Source of the DNA: Piscinibacter aquaticus
Lineage (GTDB): Bacteria; Pseudomonadota; Gammaproteobacteria; Burkholderiales; Burkholderiaceae_C
Reading direction: 5' to 3'
DNA length: 64,000 bases
Assembly: GCA_007994965.1 (NCBI GenBank)
Contig: VOPW01000001.1
Location: forward strand, 744,001 to 808,000
Within the stretch, counting starts at the first letter, position 1, and each line of letters starts with the position of its first letter. Positions 13,995-49,665 of the stretch are shown here, piece after piece. The notes below the pieces were generated by a model that was not told the DNA's origin, made no database searches, and saw only the letters and a program-made list of their open reading frames with translations. The translations under genes and the position numbers were made by a program.

Positions 13995-15280
13995 CGAAGC
14001 GAATCGCGCTTCGCGGCGACCTGCTCGACTTCACGGCCGAGCCGGACTGGGGCGTGACGGAGTCGCCCGCGGTGCGTTTTCGCCCCGACCACTGGCTGCT
14101 GATCGAAGACGGCCGCATCGCTGCGGTGCAGGCCGAGGCGCCGGGCGACGACTGGCCGCGCGAGGACCATGCCGGCCGGCTGATCCTGCCCGGCTTCATC
14201 GACACCCACGTGCACAGCCCGCAGCTCGACGTGATCGGAAGCTACGGCAGCGAACTGCTCGACTGGCTGAACACCTACACGTTCCCGGCCGAGCGGCGCT
14301 ACGCCGACCCCGAGTTGGCGGCCAGCGGCGCGGCGCTGTTCCTCGCTGCGCTGCTGGCGCACGGCACCACGGCGGCGGTGGTGTTCCCGACGGTGCACAA
14401 GGTCTCGGCCGATGCGCTCTTTGCCGGCGCGGCCGAGCGCGGCATGCGCCTGATCGCCGGCAAGGTGCTGATGGACCGCCACGCCCCCGATGGCCTGCGC
14501 GACGACGTGGTGCAGGCCGAGGCCGATTGCCGCGAGCTGATCGCACGCTGGCACGGCCGCGACCGCCTCGCCTATGCGGTGACGGTGCGCTTCGCGCCGA
14601 CCAGCACGCCGGCGCAGCTGGCGATGGCCGGCCGGCTGTGCGCCGAAGACCCGACGCTGTACCTGCAGACCCACGTCGCCGAGAACCGCGACGAGGTGCG
14701 CTGGGTGCGCGAGCTGTTCCCCGAGGCGCGCAGCTACCTCGACGTCTATGCCCGCGCCGGGCTGCTGCATGCGCGCAGCGTGCTCGCCCACGGCATCTGG
14801 CTCGACGATGCCGACCGCGCGGCGCTGCGCGAATCGGGCGCGCAGATCGCGCACAGCCCGTCGTCCAACCTCTTTCTCGGCAGCGGCCTGTTCGACTGGC
14901 GCGCCGCCGAAGCTGCCGGCGCCGCGGTGACGCTGGCCAGCGACGTCGGTGGCGGCACCAGCCTGTCGATGCTGCGCACCATGGCCGATGCCTACAAGGT
15001 GCAGGCGATGGCGCACCAGCGGCTGACCGCCTGGAAGGCCTTGCACGCCTCCACGCGCGGTGCAGCGCAGGCGCTGTCGTTGGGCCACGAGATCGGCTCG
15101 CTGGAGCCGGGCCATGCCGCCGACCTGTGCGTGTGGGACTGGGCCGCCGGCCCGGTCGCGCAGCAGCGCATGGCGGTGGCGCGCGGTTTGCATGAGAAGG
15201 TGTTCGCATGGCTGACGCTCGGCGACGAGCGCTGCCTGGTGACGAGCATCGTGAACGGCGCGGTGCGATACCAGCGCTGA
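13991..15280 (+). CDS. guaD: Guanine deaminase
   Basis: An amidohydrolase of 429 residues with intact frame that deaminates guanine to xanthine. Zinc and substrate motifs are FIDTHVHSPQ, LQTHVAENRDEV, LAHGIWLDD and LASDVGGGTSLSML; PFAM-like motif order matches GuaD rather than cytosine or atrazine hydrolases. The start ATG overlaps the stop of the lysR gene. Xanthine produced here would feed XdhABC encoded on the opposite strand nearby. Confidence 0.93.
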   Translation: MTKRIALRGDLLDFTAEPDWGVTESPAVRFRPDHWLLIEDGRIAAVQAEAPGDDWPREDHAGRLILPGFIDTHVHSPQLDVIGSYGSELLDWLNTYTFPAERRYADPELAASGAALFLAALLAHGTTAAVVFPTVHKVSADALFAGAAERGMRLIAGKVLMDRHAPDGLRDDVVQAEADCRELIARWHGRDRLAYAVTVRFAPTSTPAQLAMAGRLCAEDPTLYLQTHVAENRDEVRWVRELFPEARSYLDVYARAGLLHARSVLAHGIWLDDADRAALRESGAQIAHSPSSNLFLGSGLFDWRAAEAAGAAVTLASDVGGGTSLSMLRTMADAYKVQAMAHQRLTAWKALHASTRGAAQALSLGHEIGSLEPGHAADLCVWDWAAGPVAQQRMAVARGLHEKVFAWLTLGDERCLVTSIVNGAVRYQR

Positions 15281-43432: not shown

Positions 43433-43981
43433 CTACTTCGCCGGCTTCTCGACGTAGCGCTCCACGCCCACCGCCTCCATGCGGTAGCTGCTGACGCCCA
43501 TGAAGGTGTCGGAGCGCAGCGTGCGCAGGGTGCCGTCGATCCACACCGTGTCCATCGACTTGAAGCCCTTGGTCGGCGTCTTCGGCTTGACGTGGATGAT
43601 CTGGTTGGCCGGCGGCGGCGGCGAGTGGATGCAGGCGCCGAAGTAGGGCACGAGCAGGAACTCGGTCATGCCGTTCTTGCCTTCCTCCAGCGGCACGATG
43701 TAGCCGGGGATGCGGATCGCGCGGCCGTCCATCTTGTTGTTGACCGGCGCGTTGTCCCAGACCTCGCGCATCTTCTTCAGCATGGCCGCGGCCTTCGGGT
43801 CGGCATCGCTGAGCACGCCGAAGTTCATGTCCTTGAACTGCTTCAGCGGATCCCAGTCGGCCGGCACCAGCTCGTCCCAGCTGATCTCGGTGTGGCCGGC
43901 GCGAGGGGCCGGCTTGTCCTGGGCCTGCGCGAGTGGCGCCATCAGCGCAAGCGCCAGCAATCCGGTGAGCCATGTCTTCAT
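43433..43981 (-). CDS. DUF3299 periplasmic protein of the zinc operon
   Basis: The signal peptide MKTWLTGLLALALMAPLAQA precedes a family domain with ISWDELVPADWDP, IRIPGYIVPLE, FLLVPYFGACIHSPPPPANQ and DTFMGVSSYRM. A conserved Cys-x-His (CIH) could bind metal. AGGAAGG lies about seven bases before this ATG. It is the last gene of the zinc operon, next to a MacB-like ABC pair. A similar gene accompanies the Vibrio Zrg zinc system as I recall. Role unknown. Confidence 0.85.
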   Translation of the reverse strand: MKTWLTGLLALALMAPLAQAQDKPAPRAGHTEISWDELVPADWDPLKQFKDMNFGVLSDADPKAAAMLKKMREVWDNAPVNNKMDGRAIRIPGYIVPLEEGKNGMTEFLLVPYFGACIHSPPPPANQIIHVKPKTPTKGFKSMDTVWIDGTLRTLRSDTFMGVSSYRMEAVGVERYVEKPAK

Positions 43982-43994
43982 CGCCATTCCTTCC

Positions 43995-45270
43995 TCAGCT
44001 TCGCGGCGCCAGCCCGTCGGCCAGCGAGAGTCGATAGGCGCGCACGCCCGGCACCGGAGCTGGCCAGCACGCCCGCGGCCAGCACGCCGGCCAGCAGCGC
44101 CCATTGCGTCGGGCTCGGTGCGGCCAGCGTCAGCGCCACGCCATAGTTCGTCTGCACCCAGGGGCCGGCGCCGCCGATCAGCGCAGCACTGGCGATCACG
44201 CCCAGCACCACGCCGGCCAGCGTGACCAGCAGCCCTTCGAGCGCCAGCAGCAGCAGCACATGGCGCGGCCCGGCGCCCACCGCGCGCAGCACCGCCAGCT
44301 CGCGGCGGCGTTCGTTGAGGCCGGCGAGCACCGTGGCCACCAGGCCGGCCAGGCTGACCAGCGCGACCAGGCCCGACAGCGCCAGCAGCAGCTTCTCGCC
44401 GACGCCGACCACCGTCCAGAGTTCGTCGAGTGCGACGCCCGGCAGCACCGCCATCAGCGGCTCGCCCTCGTACTCGTTGACGAAGCGCTGCACGTTGAAC
44501 ACCGCCGCGCGCCCCTTCAGGCCGACCAGCGCGGCCGTCACCTGCTTCGGTTCGAGATCGAACTTGCGCGCCTGCTCGGCCGGGATGGCGATGCCCTTCA
44601 TCGGCACGCCCGCCGACCAGTCGAGGTGGATCGCCTCCAGCGCCTGCAGGCTGATGTGCACCGTGCGGTCCACCGGCGTGCCGGTGGGCGCGAGGATGCC
44701 GACCACGGTGAACGGCTTGTCGGCATGTTCGCTGCCGGGCAGCGTGCCGCTGCCGTGCGCGAGCACGATGCGGCTGCCGATCGTGTAGTTCAGGCGCTGC
44801 GCCACCTCGGCGCCGAGCACCGCGCCGTACAGGCCGTCGAGATCGCCCGTGAAGGGCGTGCCCTGCGCCAGCGTCAGCGGCTGCTGCTCGCCGTAGCGGA
44901 AGCGCTCGAAGTAGGCCGGCGTCGTGCCCAGCACCGGAAAGCCGCGGTGCGAATCGCCCAGCGACAACGGCACCACCCACGCCACCGCGCGGTGCTGCTC
45001 GATGGCGCGCAGGCTGTCCATGCGGATGCTGTTGGTCGCGCCGCCGAGGCGGAAGACCGCATAGAGCATCAGCTGGATCGGGCCGGTGCGCGCGCCGACG
45101 ACGAGATCGGTGCCGCTGACCGCGCTGGTGAAGTTGTCGCGTACGTCCAGGCGCACGCGCTCGAAGCTCAGCAGCAGCAGCGTGGCCAGCGCGATCGACA
45201 GCGCCACCAGCGACAGCGTGCCGCGCCGGTTCCAGGCGCTGGCGGCTGCGAGGGCCGGCAGGCTCGTCAT
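43995..45270 (-). CDS. FtsX/MacB-type ABC permease (Zrg-like)
   Basis: About 425 residues: one N-terminal helix, a large periplasmic domain (residues about 45-265) and three C-terminal helices (LLLALSGLVALVSLAGLVATVL), the MacB-type layout. NERRRELAVLRAVGA is the coupling motif. A break near 44058 restores PGVRAYRLSLADGLAPRS. ATGA overlap with the ATPase. In this operon it probably belongs to a zinc-linked transport or metalloprotein-handling system. Confidence 0.88.
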
Positions 45271-45962
45271 GCGGCAGCCCCGTGCGTGGCGCGGTTGAGC
45301 TCGGGCAGCGAGAGCGCGCGGTCGAAGCGGCCGGCGAGGCGCTCGTCGTGGCTGACGAAGACCAGCGTGCTGCCGCCGGCGCGGCACTCGCCGAGCAGGA
45401 CTTCCATGAAGCCGTCGCGCAACGCGGCATCGAGCGCCGAGGTCGGCTCGTCGGCGATCACCACCTCCGGGGCGCCGATCAGCGCGCGCGCCGCGGCCAC
45501 GCGCTGCTGCTGGCCGACCGAAAGTTCGCTGGCCCGCCGCGCCCAGGCGTCCTGCGGCAGGCCGATGCGCTGCAGCAGCGTGCGCGCCTGCGCCGTCGGC
45601 GAGCCGCTGCGCTGCGTGGCACTCGCGCTGCGGGCCGGCGAGAAGCGGCAGCCGAGCAGCACGTTGTCGATCACCGGCAGCCAGGGCAGCAGGTTGAACT
45701 GCTGGAACAGGTAGCCCGTGCTCGGCGCGATGGCGATCGCGCGCGGCGGCGGGCAGTTCGGCCCAGTCGAGGCCAGCCAGCGCCACGCGGCCCTCGCGTG
45801 GCAGCAGCACGCCGGCCAGCAGCGACAGCAGCGTGCTCTGCCGCAGCCGCTCGGGCCGTGCAGGAAGACGGTCTCGCCGGCGGCGACGTCGAGCGCATCG
45901 ATGGCCAGCACGTCGCGCGTGGCGCGCGGCCAGGCATAGCGGACGTCGCGCAGCGAGATCAC
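45267..45962 (-). CDS. ABC ATPase of the Zrg-like system (LolD/MacB type)
   Basis: About 230 residues: Walker A HGPSGCGKST (after a correction near 45849), Q-loop FQQFNLLPWLPV, signature ELSVGQQQRVAAARAL and Walker B VVIADEPTSALD. The GTG start overlaps the ZrgA stop (GTGA), and the end overlaps the permease start. Another break lies near 45760. Confidence 0.88.
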   Translation of the reverse strand: MISLRDVRYAWPRATRDVLAIDALDVAAGETVFLHGPSGCGRARCCRCWPACCCHARAAWRWLASTGPNCPPPRAIAIAPSTGYLFQQFNLLPWLPVIDNVLLGCRFSPARSASATQRSGSPTAQARTLLQRIGLPQDAWARRASELSVGQQQRVAAARALIGAPEVVIADEPTSALDAALRDGFMEVLLGECRAGGSTLVFVSHDERLAGRFDRALSLPELNRATHGAAA

Positions 45963-46469
45963 CGCGGCAGGTCGATGCGTTGCGCCGGCCGCTTCAGCAC
46001 GATCTTGCGCTGGCCTTGGGCGCGGCCACCTGCACGTCGAGGCGCGACAGGCGCGCGAAGGCCTTGAACAGGCCGGCATCGACGAAGGCAGGCGCGGCTG
46101 GCAGCGGAAGACGAACTCGCCTTCGAGATCGCCGTGGCCATCGTCCTTGGCGGCCGGCGCGCTGCCGAGCTTCAGCGGGGCGGATTCGAGCGTCACCGAG
46201 GACAGCACGCAGCCCGCGGCCGGGTCGATGGTGAACAACTGATCGGCGGCACGTAGCGTGGCCACGGCCTTCTCGGCGGCGCGTTTCTCGGCATCGCTGC
46301 GCGGTGCGCGCTCGAAGCCGAGCAGGCCATCGAGCGGCGTGTCGAGCGCGATCGTCAGCGTCGAGCCTTCCAGCGCGACATCGAGTCGCGCGGCGCCGTG
46401 TTCGTGAGCCTTGCCGGCCCAGGCGGGCGCCGTGGCGACGAGGGCGAGCATCAGGAGCGTCTTCTTCAT
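45959..46469 (-). CDS. zrgA: ZrgA-like DUF2796 periplasmic zinc protein
   Basis: Signal peptide MKKTLLMLALVATAPAWAG, then KAHEHGAARLDVALEGSTLT and DTPLDGLLGFERAP, the DUF2796 hallmark, with a His-rich N-terminus suited to zinc. An internal acidic/His stretch (DDGHGD) follows. Breaks lie near 46090 and 46010. ZrgA in Vibrio cholerae belongs to a zinc-induced uptake system; the link is by family and context. ATGA overlap with znuA. Confidence 0.82.
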
Positions 46470-47362
46470 GGTCTGGCCTTGATCGAATCACGCAGCGCAC
46501 CGGCGATCGCGTCGACGTTGTGCGCCATCAGCTCGAGGTAGGTGGCGGCGCCCTTGCCGGGCGCCGAGAGCGCATCCGAATACAGCGTGCCGCCGACCTG
46601 CGCGCCGGTTTCCTGCGCGATGCGCTCGATGCTGCGCCGGTCGGTGATGTTCTCGACGAACAGCGCGCGCCCGGTGCAGCCGCACCTGGCGGATCACCGC
46701 GGCGACGCCGGCGGCCGAGGCCTCGCTCTCGGTATTCCAACTGCGCGGCGCAATGAAGGTGATGCCGTAGGCGTCGCCGAGGTAGCCGAAGGCGTCGTGC
46801 GTGGTGACCACGCGGCGCTGCTCGCGCGGGATGGCGTCGAGGGCGGCGCGCGAGCGGGCATCGAGCTCGGCCGGGCGCGCGGTGTAGGCCTTCGCCCGTG
46901 CATCGATGGCCACCGCCTGCGCCGGGGCCAGCGCCACCAGTGCAGCGCGGATGTTCTCCACGTAGCGCTGCGCATGCACGAGGCTCTGCCAGCATGCGGA
47001 TCGACGCTGCGGCCCGCACGCCGCGGCACGATGCCCTGCGTCGCCTCGACCACCTTGCCGCGGTAGCCGGAGGCGCGCACGAGGCGATCGATCCAGCCTT
47101 CGAAGTGCAGGCCGTTGACGATCACCAGGTCGGCCTTCGCGAGCCGCTGCGCATCGGCCGGCGTCGGCTCGAACACATGCGCATCGGCATTCGGGCCGAC
47201 CAGCGCGTGCACCTGCGCCGCATCGCCGGCCACCTCGCGCGCGATGTCGGCGAGGATGGAGAAGCTCGCCACGACCTGCAGCGGCTTCGTCGTCTGCGCG
47301 TGCAGCGGCAAGGCCGCGGCCATCAGGGCCAGGGCGATCGAGAAAAAACGAAGGCGGTTCAT
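46466..47362 (-). CDS. znuA: Zinc ABC transporter substrate-binding protein
   Basis: The signal peptide ends LPLHA. The cluster A-I fold carries metal ligands in VGPNADAHVFEP, DPHAWQSL, TTHDAFGYL and near SDALSAPG. A break near 46994 restores a CCTGG site (DPHAWQ); another is near 46683. There is no long His-rich loop as in E. coli ZnuA. Binds zinc in the periplasm for ZnuBC. Confidence 0.9.
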
Positions 47363-47370
47363 CGGAAGAC

Positions 47371-48247
47371 TCAGGCGATGCGGTGCGCGCGCAGCGCGAT
47401 GCGGCGGGCGAGCAGGCTGTCGTGCCGGCCGGTGGCCAGCGACACGAGGTAGGCGGCACCCGCCAGCAGCACGATCGCCGGGCCCGAGGGCAACTGCAGG
47501 TGGTAGCTCAGCAGCAACCCGCCGGTGGCGCTGAGCAGCGCGATCAGCGTGGCCACGGCCGCCGGGCTCCACACCTCGCGCGCCCAGAAGCGCGCCGCGG
47601 TGGCCGGCAGCATCATCAGGCCCACCGCCATCAGGGTGCCCAGCGCCTGGAAGCCGGCGACGAGGTTGAGCACGACGAGGCCGAGAAAGACGAAGTGCAG
47701 CGTGCGTTCGGCTCCGCCGACCGAGCGCAGGAAGCCGGGGTCGACGCTGGCCACCAGCAGCGGCCGGTAGGCTGCTGCCACCACCAGCAGCGTCACGCTC
47801 GCCACGCCGGCCACCGTGACCAGCGCGGCATCGTCGACGGCCAGGATGCTGCCGAACAGCACGTGCATCAGGTCGACCGGGCTGCCGTGCGTGGAGACGA
47901 TCAGCACGCCGGCGGCCAGCGCGATCAGGTAGAAGGCGGCAAAGCTGGCGTCCTCGCGCTGCGTGGTGACCTGCGCCACCCAGCCCGCGAGCACCGCCAC
48001 CAGCAGCGCGGCGGCGAGGCCGCCGGCGCCCATCGCCGGCAGCGAGAAGCCGGCGATCGCGAAGCCGATCGCGGCGCCGGGCAGCACGGCGTGCGCCATC
48101 GCATCGCCCATCAGGCTCATGCGGCGCAGCACCAGCAGCGTGCCCATCGGCGCGCTGCCGAGTGCGAGCGCCAGGGCAGGCCACCAGCGCGCGGCGCATG
48201 AAGCCGAATTCGGCGAACGGCTGGATGATGAGTTCGTAGAGGCCCAT
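47371..48247 (-). CDS. znuB: Zinc ABC transporter permease
   Basis: About 290 residues with seven to eight helices. Family motifs: RRMSLMGDAMAHAVLPGAAI and GFQALGTLMAVGLMMLPA. A break near 48175 is an extra C within a CCTGG site. It lies eight bases after the ATPase gene and eight before znuA on the minus strand. Confidence 0.92.
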
Positions 48248-48254
48248 GTGCGCG

Positions 48255-48998
48255 CCTCAGGCCTTCTCGCAGACGGGCGCGGATTCGTCCCAGCGTTCGG
48301 CCATCTGCCGCGCGCGGAACAGGTTCTCGGCGCGCAGCACCTGCGCGGTCGGGCCCAAGCCACCGGCTCGCGGGCCAGCAGCAGCGCCTGCGGAAAGTGC
48401 TCACGCACCAGCTCCATGTCGTGCAGCACCGCCACCACGGTACGTGCCTCGCCATGCCAGCGGCGCACCACCGCCAGCAGGTCGGCGCTGGTGCGGGCGT
48501 CGATCGCGTTGAAGGGCTCGTCGAGCAGGATCAGCTGGGCGTCCTGCAGCAGCACCCGCGCGAACAGCACGCGCTGGAACTGGCCCACCGAGAGTTCGCC
48601 GATGCGCCGCTGCTCGAAGCCGCCCAGCCCGACCGAGGCCAGCGCCTCGCGGGCGCGCTCGCGCGCAGCGGCGCGTCGATCGCACCGAAGGCACCGCGGC
48701 GCGGCCAGTGGCCGAGCGAGACGAGGTCGAGCACGCCGAGCGGAAAGCTGCGGTCGATCTGCGATTGCTGCGGCAGGTAGGCGACGCGGCCGACGAGTTC
48801 CGGCGCGATCTCGATGCGGCCCGAGCTCAGCGGCAGGCGGCCGGCCAGTGCGTCCAGCAGGCTGCTCTTGCCGGCGCCGTTGGGGCCGATCACGGCGGTG
48901 AGCGAGCCCATCGCCAGCTCGCCGCTGAGGTGGTGCACCGCCGGGTGGCGCTGGTGCGTCACCGTCAGGTCGATCACGCGGACGGCGCTGGCGCTCAT
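48255..48998 (-). CDS. znuC: Zinc ABC transporter ATPase
   Basis: About 247 residues: Walker A GPNGAGKSSLL, signature ELSVGQFQRVLFARVLLQD, Walker B LILLDEPFNAID and H-loop VLHDMELV. Breaks near 48665 and 48358. The ATG overlaps the stop of the His-rich peptide gene (ATGA), so the two are translationally coupled. Confidence 0.92.
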
Positions 48999-49210
48999 GC
49001 GGCGAGGTCCGTCAACGCCCAGGCCACGGCGCCCCACAGCAGGGCCAGCGCCGCCAGCGCCGCGGCGACGCGGGTGGCGGCCCCGCTCATCAGCACGCTG
49101 GGCAGCACGGCTTCGCGCGGGGCCGGCACGGACGCGTGTCCATGCCCGTGGCCGTGCCCGTGCCCGTGGTGGTGCGCGTGGCCGTGGTCGTGCGCGTGAT
49201 CGTGCTTCAT
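48995..49210 (-). CDS. His-rich small membrane protein of the zinc operon
   Basis: 71 residues. The first 25 are almost only His, Gly, Asp and Ala (about 12 histidines), an evident metal-binding tail. One predicted helix near the C-terminus (VAAALAALALLWGAVAWAL) would anchor it. ATGA overlaps join it to zur upstream and znuC downstream, leaving little room for doubt that it is translated. It may buffer zinc or donate it at the membrane. I know no named family. Confidence 0.8.
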   Translation of the reverse strand: MKHDHAHDHGHAHHHGHGHGHGHGHASVPAPREAVLPSVLMSGAATRVAAALAALALLWGAVAWALTDLAA

Positions 49211-49627
49211 GCCGCCGCTCCCGCGCACTCGGCGCAGCGCCCGCGCAGCGTCAGCTCGTGCTGCTCGACGCGAAATCCGGCGGGCGCCGGGCGCTCGATG
49301 CCGCCCGGGCAGCCGTGGATCGGGAAGACCCGGTCGCAGGCGGTGCAGTGGAAATGATGGTGGTGGTGCGCATGGCCCCGCGCCGGGGCGTGGCTGCACG
49401 GCGCCTCGAAGCGCGCCGCCGCCCTGGCCCGGCAGGTCGACGCGCACCACCTGCGACTCCTCGTGCAGCGCACGCAGCTGCCGGTAGACGGTGGAGAGGT
49501 TCAGCGTCGGCACCTCGGCACGCGCCAGCTCGAGGATCTCGGCGGGCGCCAGAGAGCGGCCGCTGTCGACCAGCGAGCGCAGCACGGCCTCTTTCTGGCG
49601 GGTCTGGCGGGAGGGGCGGGTTTCCAT
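49207..49627 (-). CDS. zur: Fur-family zinc uptake regulator Zur
   Basis: About 139 residues. The winged helix reads RQKEAVLRSLVDSGRSLAPA and NLSTVYRQLRAL. The dimerisation domain has a His stretch (GHAHHHHHFHC) and two CxxC zinc sites (CTAC and CAEC). One break lies near 49425. First gene of the operon, 18 bases downstream of a palindrome, so self-repression with zinc is expected. Confidence 0.9.
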
Positions 49628-49645
49628 GCAGGTCGGCATCTTATT

Positions 49646-49665
49646 GCAAATGCACTTGCATTTGC
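49646..49665 (-). promoter_or_regulatory. Zur operator
   Basis: GCAAATGCACTTGCATTTGC is a 20-base palindrome, perfect except for the two central bases. It lies 18 bases before the zur ATG and just after the kefC-like stop. Base content (A/T-rich in GC-rich DNA) and position fit a Zur box controlling the whole zinc operon. Confidence 0.82.

Follow-up and report, generated by a model that had tools for sequence, protein, structure and literature searches.

A nine-gene zinc operon of Piscinibacter aquaticus combining a Zur-type regulator, an Azt/Znu-like importer and a Zrg-type unit behind one Zur-box-like palindrome

Studying a stretch of 64,000 nucleotides from Piscinibacter aquaticus (assembly GCA_007994965.1, contig VOPW01000001.1, positions 744,001 to 808,000 of the forward strand; in the following, the window) reveals nine genes on the minus strand, running from 49639 to 43433 in the order zur, a gene for a His-rich peptide, znuC, znuB, znuA, zrgA, zrgC, zrgB and zrgE. 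This operon is a new arrangement of known parts: a zinc-type regulator of the Fur family, a zinc importer of the ATP-binding cassette (ABC) type, and the Zrg genes, for which conflicting functions have been published. Genomes used for comparison are numbered with G and loci with L; G000 is the source genome, and G001 and G003 are relatives from the same genus. The features are as follows.

49646..49665, strand not assigned: predicted Zur-box-like 20-bp palindrome between kefB and zur (G000:C1:793646-793665), perfect in G001 and G003.
49207..49639, minus strand: zur, with its start at 49639 or 49627; PF01475 match in two fragments, two frames, intact in G001 and G003.
48995..49210, minus strand: His-rich peptide of 71 amino acids, with a single hydrophobic segment at the C-terminus; overlaps zur and znuC by ATGA in each case.
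48257..48998, minus strand: znuC/aztA, ATPase of the zinc importer, frameshifted; among NCBIfam models the G001 copy fits AztA best, with 212.5 bits against a cut-off of 220.
47371..48247, minus strand: znuB/aztB, zinc importer permease, frameshifted near its start; PF00950 with 165 bits; G001 copy 252.1 bits to AztB, cut-off 280.
46466..47362, minus strand: znuA/aztC, zinc-binding protein with internal frame changes; PF01297 in two fragments; G001 copy 267.9 bits to AztC, cut-off 350.
45959..46469, minus strand: zrgA (DUF2796), periplasmic zinc-binding protein, frameshifted; PF10986 with E 2e-28; relatives in PDB 7ahw and 8ezw.
45267..45962, minus strand: zrgC, ABC ATPase with GTG start; PF00005; one single tblastn stretch over residues 1-231, 68.5% to G001.
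43995..45270, minus strand: zrgB, permease of the MacB/LolCDE type, frameshift near the 3' end; PF12704 and PF02687, match by fold; His172, His182 and His215 invariant in the family.
43433..43981, minus strand: zrgE (DUF3299), secreted OB-fold protein, alternative start 43987; PF11736 with 154 bits; relative 4hsp.

In the window Pfam supports FUR, ABC_tran, ABC-3, ZnuA, ZrgA (PF10986), again ABC_tran, MacB_PCD with FtsX, and DUF3299; the FUR match consists of two fragments, the second of which is under the gathering score. Five four-base overlaps can be read from the sequence (zur/peptide, peptide/znuC, znuA/zrgA, zrgA/zrgC as GTGA, and zrgC/zrgB), and the remaining gaps measure 9 nt (znuC/znuB), 8 nt (znuB/znuA) and 7 or 13 nt (zrgB/zrgE, depending on the start chosen). 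The nine-gene run of the original prediction, with five such overlaps and nothing wider than 14 nt, is therefore confirmed from sequence and Pfam. Upstream, kefB is codirectional and ends 54 nt before the first possible start of zur, so that read-through from kefB into the operon may occur.

At least five of the nine genes are frameshifted in the window: zur, znuC, znuB, zrgA and zrgB each occupy two or more reading frames, and internal shifts seem to be present in znuA and zrgC as well. In G001 (one contig, 100% complete) and G003 all nine genes are intact, in identical order and behind a perfect box, and gene decay as the source of the frameshifts was rejected on these grounds. Because the relatives are intact and the source genome (4.57 Mb) is 77% complete in 3 contigs, the frameshifts in our reading point to an uncorrected long-read assembly, and gene calls elsewhere in this genome therefore need care. 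That these two relatives share the arrangement, perfect box included, tells us that it is not due to chance.

On the operon strand the palindrome reads GCAAATGCAAGTGCATTTGC in the window and GCAAATGCAATTGCATTTGC ahead of the operon in G001 and G003. Scanning for GCAAATGN6CATTTGC with up to one mismatch gave a single site in the source genome and a single site, before zur, in each of the four other zur-bearing congeners; the reversed control pattern had no match. The pattern was not found in the zrg-only genomes G002 and G004, and in G005 it occurs once, with one mismatch, away from zur, znu and zrg genes. Other Zur-box-like palindromes near zrg or znu genes of other genera were also read, from which nothing useful emerged. 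The four-base overlap at the znuA/zrgA junction leaves no space for a second promoter. It had been predicted that a single Zur box precedes all nine genes, and what we find is one Zur-box-like palindrome with Zur, importer and Zrg behind it. The box and the gene packing lead us to infer one operon for zinc starvation under the control of Zur: with ample zinc, Zur on this palindrome would repress all nine genes, and when zinc drops the nine would be produced together.

The first half of the operon encodes an Azt/Znu-type importer, in which the binding protein would capture periplasmic zinc while permease and ATPase move it inward. With an ABC-3 permease and a ZnuA-family binding protein it belongs to the cluster A-I metal ABC importers. 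For the G001 copies AztA, AztB and AztC are the nearest NCBIfam models, all under cut-off (scores above); the E. coli-type models, which the E. coli proteins do pass, are not reached (ZnuB 87.2 against 284 bits, ZnuA 62.5 against 268 bits). Judged by these profiles the importer is Azt-like rather than strictly Znu, and the znu names are retained here. Of the complete classical Znu importer that had been predicted, completeness stands, as ATPase, ABC-3 permease and ZnuA-family protein are all present; the classical identity has to be modified, because the proteins are closer to Azt than to E. coli Znu. AztD was not identified among the nine genes.

The second half matches the Zrg system. ZrgA of the window scores 99.8 bits to PF10986 (cut-off 27.4) and ZrgE 153.9 bits to PF11736 (cut-off 22), and an ABC ATPase and a MacB-like/FtsX permease adjoin zrgA. 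The distal four genes are homologous to Zrg of Vibrio and to PA4063-PA4066 of Pseudomonas aeruginosa, in agreement with the predicted likeness. Both relatives of ZrgA with a solved structure, PA4063 (7ahw) and V. cholerae ZrgA (8ezw), bind zinc, and His24, His26, His114, Cys89 and Cys125 are invariant in 16 ZrgA sequences. ZrgE has an OB fold, as does PA4066 (4hsp), and its GACIH motif is invariant. Because the G001 copy of ZrgA stays under the cut-off of the NCBIfam ZrgA equivalog (85.4 against 185 bits), the protein is filed as Zrg-type and not as Vibrio ZrgA. ZrgD (DUF2607) was not recognised in the operon, to which the search was confined and whose small peptide has no Pfam match in the two congeners; according to PMC9817125, ZrgD is likewise missing in V. 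fischeri and Photobacterium profundum.

By sequence, LolF and MacB are the best matches to ZrgB among proteins of solved structure, and the similarity is confined to the C-terminal helices. Its predicted structure (mean predicted local distance difference test 78.6, predicted template modelling score 0.69) has four long helical stretches and a large periplasmic domain. Re-aligned with Foldseek's own top chains, so that families outside that list are possible, it matches 5xu1_M (Z 21.6, root-mean-square deviation 7.9, 358 residues aligned), LolE 9rld (Z 19.8), HrtB 7w7a (Z 19.1) and MacB 5nik (Z 16.9). Taken together, Z lies between 15 and 22 over 320-365 residues for 5xu1, LolCE, HrtB and MacB, with deviations of 6-13 where flexible parts differ, which places ZrgB in the type VII ABC fold. 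Five residues in the stretch that separates the first two long helices, His172, His182, His215, Asp106 and Asp201, do not vary in any of 18 ZrgB sequences. The same five residues are conserved in five of five permeases of a sister system that neighbour a DUF3299-like gene; in E. coli MacB, LolC and LolE no histidines align at the invariant positions, in a gappy alignment. The invariant residues point to a candidate metal site facing the periplasm, in a machine that does its work there. As to the sister system itself (L023-L030), it pairs a permease resembling ZrgB with a DUF3299-like protein (25-36 bits) encoded after it, occurs in many relatives, and does not keep His108 in the five permeases examined. 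Another variation is seen in G020 (L039 11639-12728), which has two adjacent DUF3299 genes after zrgACB.

The MacB-like fold of ZrgB would also suit an exporter. For PA4063-PA4066 it has been argued, from P. aeruginosa genetics and metal contents, that a MacB-type exporter of a pyochelin-cobalt complex is encoded (PMC11481552), and ZrgBC could accordingly export a metal-chelator complex. We consider this very improbable. The thiazolinyl imide reductase TIGR01761, a marker of pyochelin/yersiniabactin-type synthesis, is over its cut-off in only one (G211) out of 53 ZrgA genomes and not in G000-G005, with six further sub-cut-off matches, and no MacA-type adaptor is encoded among the nine operon genes, the part of the genome that was searched for it. 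Pyochelin export as a general role of Zrg was rejected because of the marker's distribution; export of another chelator by ZrgBC may take place.

Within the genus, the interval between kefB and a DUF1841 gene differs among eight genomes. It holds all nine genes in G000, G001 and G003, only zrgACBE in G002, only zrgCBE in G004 and G005 (with zrgA elsewhere), and only zur-peptide-znuCBA in G006 and G007. One site thus carries both or either half, so the two halves of the operon are separable. Neither an ABC-3 nor a Zur match was found in G002, G004 and G005; for G002, which is 84% complete, this absence is weaker in the rest of the genome, the kefB site itself being contiguous. In the two zrgCBE-only genomes, G004 and G005, kefB and zrgC overlap by four bases, the start of zrgC lying on the stop codon of kefB (L035 11155-11158; L036 8435-8438), and since zur, znu, zrgA and box are not nearby, Zrg is apparently no longer under Zur there.

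In the kefB tree all eight genomes group together with 100/99 support. G006 and G007 are nested with G000 both in this tree (100/99) and in the ZnuB tree (99/96), which indicates that the Zrg half (zrgACBE) was lost in these two. This step, read from trees, is firmer than the history of zur-znu. In the kefB tree the nine-gene state lies on both sides of the zrg-only branch of G002, G004 and G005 (support 86/88), and in the ZrgB tree G000 clusters with G001 and G003 (93/92); on the zrg-only branch zur-znu may have been lost or never been present. ZrgB and ZnuB are each monophyletic within the genus, so both halves were inherited vertically there. A kefB-anchored scan of named genomes comprised 80 loci, 58 of which have at least 9.7 kb after kefB. 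By the thresholds used, 55 of these 58 contain none of the nine genes, and the remaining three are L120 (zur without znu), L137 (G006) and L160 (G002). L120, from Rhizobacter sp. Root404 (14141-15252), has in the kefB-DUF1841 interval a Zur (50%-like) followed by a transporter which by eye looks like a nickel/cobalt type and not like znu.

ZIP permeases (PF02535) are distributed exactly along the importer states. No match was found in the five congeners with Znu, Zrg present or not, and all three Zrg congeners without Znu have one. The idea that Zrg alone replaces Znu in this genus was rejected for this reason, and the Znu-less congeners are no evidence for Zrg as sole importer.

We then looked at the order as a whole, in 399 genomes that are at least 95% complete except G000. 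ZnuB was scored at E < 1e-30 and ZIP as any match with E <= 0.001 (dropping weak ZIP matches barely alters the table); negatives are genomes missing from the full match list. The counts represent related genomes and not independent events, hence the p-values are descriptive. Among the 46 genomes with ZrgA, 8 have ZnuB and ZIP, 8 only ZnuB, 28 only ZIP and 2 neither; the corresponding numbers for the 353 ZrgA-negative genomes are 46, 65, 232 and 10. Avoidance between ZnuB and ZIP is strong (odds ratio 0.034, p 3e-32). No avoidance exists between ZrgA and ZnuB (odds ratio 1.16, p 0.74), ZIP is present in 36 of 46 genomes with and 278 of 353 without ZrgA, and ZrgA is not tied to the state without either importer (odds ratio 1.56, p 0.64). 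ZrgA occurs in 27 genera, and in 12 out of 13 mixed genera there are ZrgA members with every importer class of their ZrgA-negative congeners. As importers that can replace each other avoid each other and ZrgA avoids neither, we read Zrg as an accessory.

This has to be weighed against the view that ZrgABC constitutes another complete importer of zinc, in which ZrgA serves as solute-binding protein, and that the operon simply doubles the import capacity under zinc shortage. In V. cholerae Zrg has been treated as an importer and ZrgA as its binding protein, and the MacB-like ZrgB and a possible contact with ZrgA were already noted there; a znuA zrgA double mutant does worse than znuA alone, from which import through Zrg was concluded (PMC9820375). 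In V. parahaemolyticus the operon is controlled by Zur, zinc limitation raised it ~75- to 205-fold, and deletion of zrgA impaired growth in low zinc (PMC9817125). Importer pairs do coexist, with ZnuB and ZIP together in 54 of the 399 genomes. Against this stands the occurrence pattern, in which 44 of the 46 ZrgA genomes keep ZnuB or ZIP, and the MacB/LolCDE/HrtB fold of the permease. No importer is known among type VII ABC proteins. We therefore regard a second importer as a serious possibility, somewhat less probable than an accessory; it is the signs of a periplasmic metal site in ZrgB and the occurrence pattern that make us favour the latter.

Besides the double mutant, several observations speak against the accessory role. 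That Zrg does not replace an importer also fits an extra importer used only in starvation. In genus g82 both ZrgA genomes (G088, G168) have neither strong ZnuB nor ZIP, while the ZrgA-negative member G131 has ZIP; reading by eye found no other importer beside their zrg genes, and Zrg may be an importer there; this genus is the main exception to the accessory role. The ZrgA proteins of g82 are over the cut-off but reach only 54-58 bits, and the G088 copy is without the HxHG motif (L107 7070-7585; G168:C28:28147-28545). Finally, in G077 (L108 6298-8717) zrgA is immediately preceded by genes for a ZnuA-like protein and a low-scoring ABC-3 permease (59.8 bits), so a genome without strong ZnuB need not be without a zinc ABC importer. 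This pair is a third kind of importer neighbour for Zrg.

A survey of gene neighbourhoods had been proposed with the original prediction and was carried out; it finds Zrg next to Znu or next to ZIP, depending on the lineage. In 8 of 16 genomes with both, zrgA lies at most 2 kb from the ZnuB match (G000, G001, G068, G185, G211, G263, G307, G328), with zrgACBE divergent from znuCBA in G068, G185, G211, G307 and G328. In G012 and G263 zur-znuCBA and zrgA stand together and zrgCBE is not with them, and in G018 zur-zrgA is divergent from znuCBA. The nine-gene order corresponds to the two clusters of G012 end to end, plus the small peptide. In at least six genomes (G079, G084, G192, G300, G315, G430) a ZIP gene lies about 2.5 kb or less from zrgA, in five of them with a Zur-like gene close by. 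In the library searched, no paper was found linking Zrg with ZIP.

Could the two halves share nothing but a promoter, because Zur control gathers zinc-starvation genes without any working contact? The halves do occur apart at the same site and at separate loci in G012 and G018, and on a Phaeobacter plasmid zrgACBE follows its own Fur-family gene without an importer. The placement of zrgA with zur-znuCBA away from zrgCBE (G012, G263), or divergent beside zur (G018), points the other way, weakly, as it fits shared regulation too. On balance we think it rather unlikely that promoter sharing is all there is. The expectation that the second unit completes zinc handling is upheld in part: adding to rather than duplicating the importer fits the order survey, whereas a need of this particular importer for Zrg is not supported, since the halves occur apart and Zrg is also found beside ZIP.

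The accessory role can be put together as follows. Zrg would be an add-on and not a substitute importer. ZrgA would bind zinc in the periplasm; its relative PA4063 has been proposed to act as periplasmic zinc chaperone or sensor (PMC8561739). ZrgB and ZrgC would form a type VII ABC machine, in which cytoplasmic ATP moves the large periplasmic domain with the invariant histidines, assisted by the OB-fold protein ZrgE. The Zrg parts would probably strip or load periplasmic zinc and thereby supply the inner-membrane importer that a given lineage has, which is Azt/Znu in this operon and ZIP elsewhere. Gene content, order, box, conservation, separability, occurrence pattern and fold class are direct results, and from these we infer the action of Zur here, the direction of zinc movement and the hand-over to the importer. 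Overall, we see about an even chance that this is a Zur-controlled operon in which Zrg, with its MacB/LolCDE-like fold, works in the periplasm as an importer-independent zinc-loading accessory.

The second product of the operon deserves separate attention. For the His-rich peptide NCBIfam matches are only weak and far under cut-offs. Its C-terminal hydrophobic segment, with the consensus R(L/V)...LLW..VAWAL, recurs immediately before znuC elsewhere. With a profile built from nine copies (the hidden Markov model scores refer to small sets) at least 22.8 bits are reached in 18 out of 20 Burkholderiales znuC loci, or 10 out of 12 outside the profile, the misses being G149 (12.0 bits) and G438 (0.6 bits); in 11 of the 20 the micropeptide and znuC overlap by four bases. 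Out of 600 random positions, two get to 12 bits and none to 20. Nine loci from other families of the class have a closely similar ZnuB; eight of these nine score 13 bits or more and five score 20 or more, and for 20 loci with more distant ABC-3 permeases the maximum is 6.3 bits. Further scores are 26.0 (Skermanella), 23.3 (Azospirillum) and 17.1 (Comamonas); E. coli has no micropeptide before znuC. The loci concerned (window 48995-49210 on the minus strand, L205-L209, L216-L218, L220-L222, L228-L236, L260-L262) are mostly unannotated or hypothetical, those of Skermanella and Comamonas being annotated as hypothetical proteins of 46 residues. Because histidines (0 to 13 per copy) are limited to some copies, the helix is the conserved part and the His-rich part optional. 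The peptide is the long form of a conserved, unnamed one-helix membrane micropeptide encoded directly before znuC/aztA, which is new; no paper describing it was found in the library searched. Co-translated ahead of the ATPase, it would probably be a small partner of the importer, and may be a component so far missing from the picture of this well-studied family of importers.

The value of this operon lies in the micropeptide and in making the role of Zrg testable. Published readings conflict, a zinc importer in Vibrio and a pyochelin-cobalt exporter in Pseudomonas, and a genus with both or either half at one site, and ZIP exactly where Znu is missing, turns this dispute into one that strain comparison can address. 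Should Zrg assist importers of any kind, a role in nutrient uptake would be added to an ABC class that is known for export and for work in the periplasm. The boldest combination, namely that Zrg is an ATP-driven periplasmic zinc loader for unrelated importers (Azt/Znu or ZIP), and so the first type VII ABC metal machine feeding uptake and not export, and that in addition a fourth Azt/Znu subunit has gone unrecognised, of which the His-rich peptide is the long form, we put forward as tentative and on the doubtful side.

Comparing the operon with known systems, it shares with the cluster A-I importers AztABCD and ZnuABC the ATPase, the ABC-3 permease and the ZnuA-family binding protein, being nearest to AztA/B/C, although below their cut-offs, and far below those of ZnuB and ZnuA. 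With the ZrgABCDE systems of V. cholerae and V. parahaemolyticus, which are Zur-controlled (PMC9820375, PMC9817125), it has in common ZrgA (DUF2796), the ABC ATPase, the MacB-like permease and the DUF3299 protein; it differs by having no recognised ZrgD and by the order A-C-B-E behind zur and an importer. PA4063-PA4066, as annotated on a P. aeruginosa plasmid, comprises the same four genes in the same order, there, unlike in our operon, without zur or an importer adjoining. MacB, LolCDE, HrtBA and FtsEX, the mechanotransmission machines of type VII, have four long helical stretches and a large periplasmic domain like ZrgB, which is set apart from E. coli MacB, LolC and LolE, as far as the gappy alignment allows, by its invariant periplasmic histidines.

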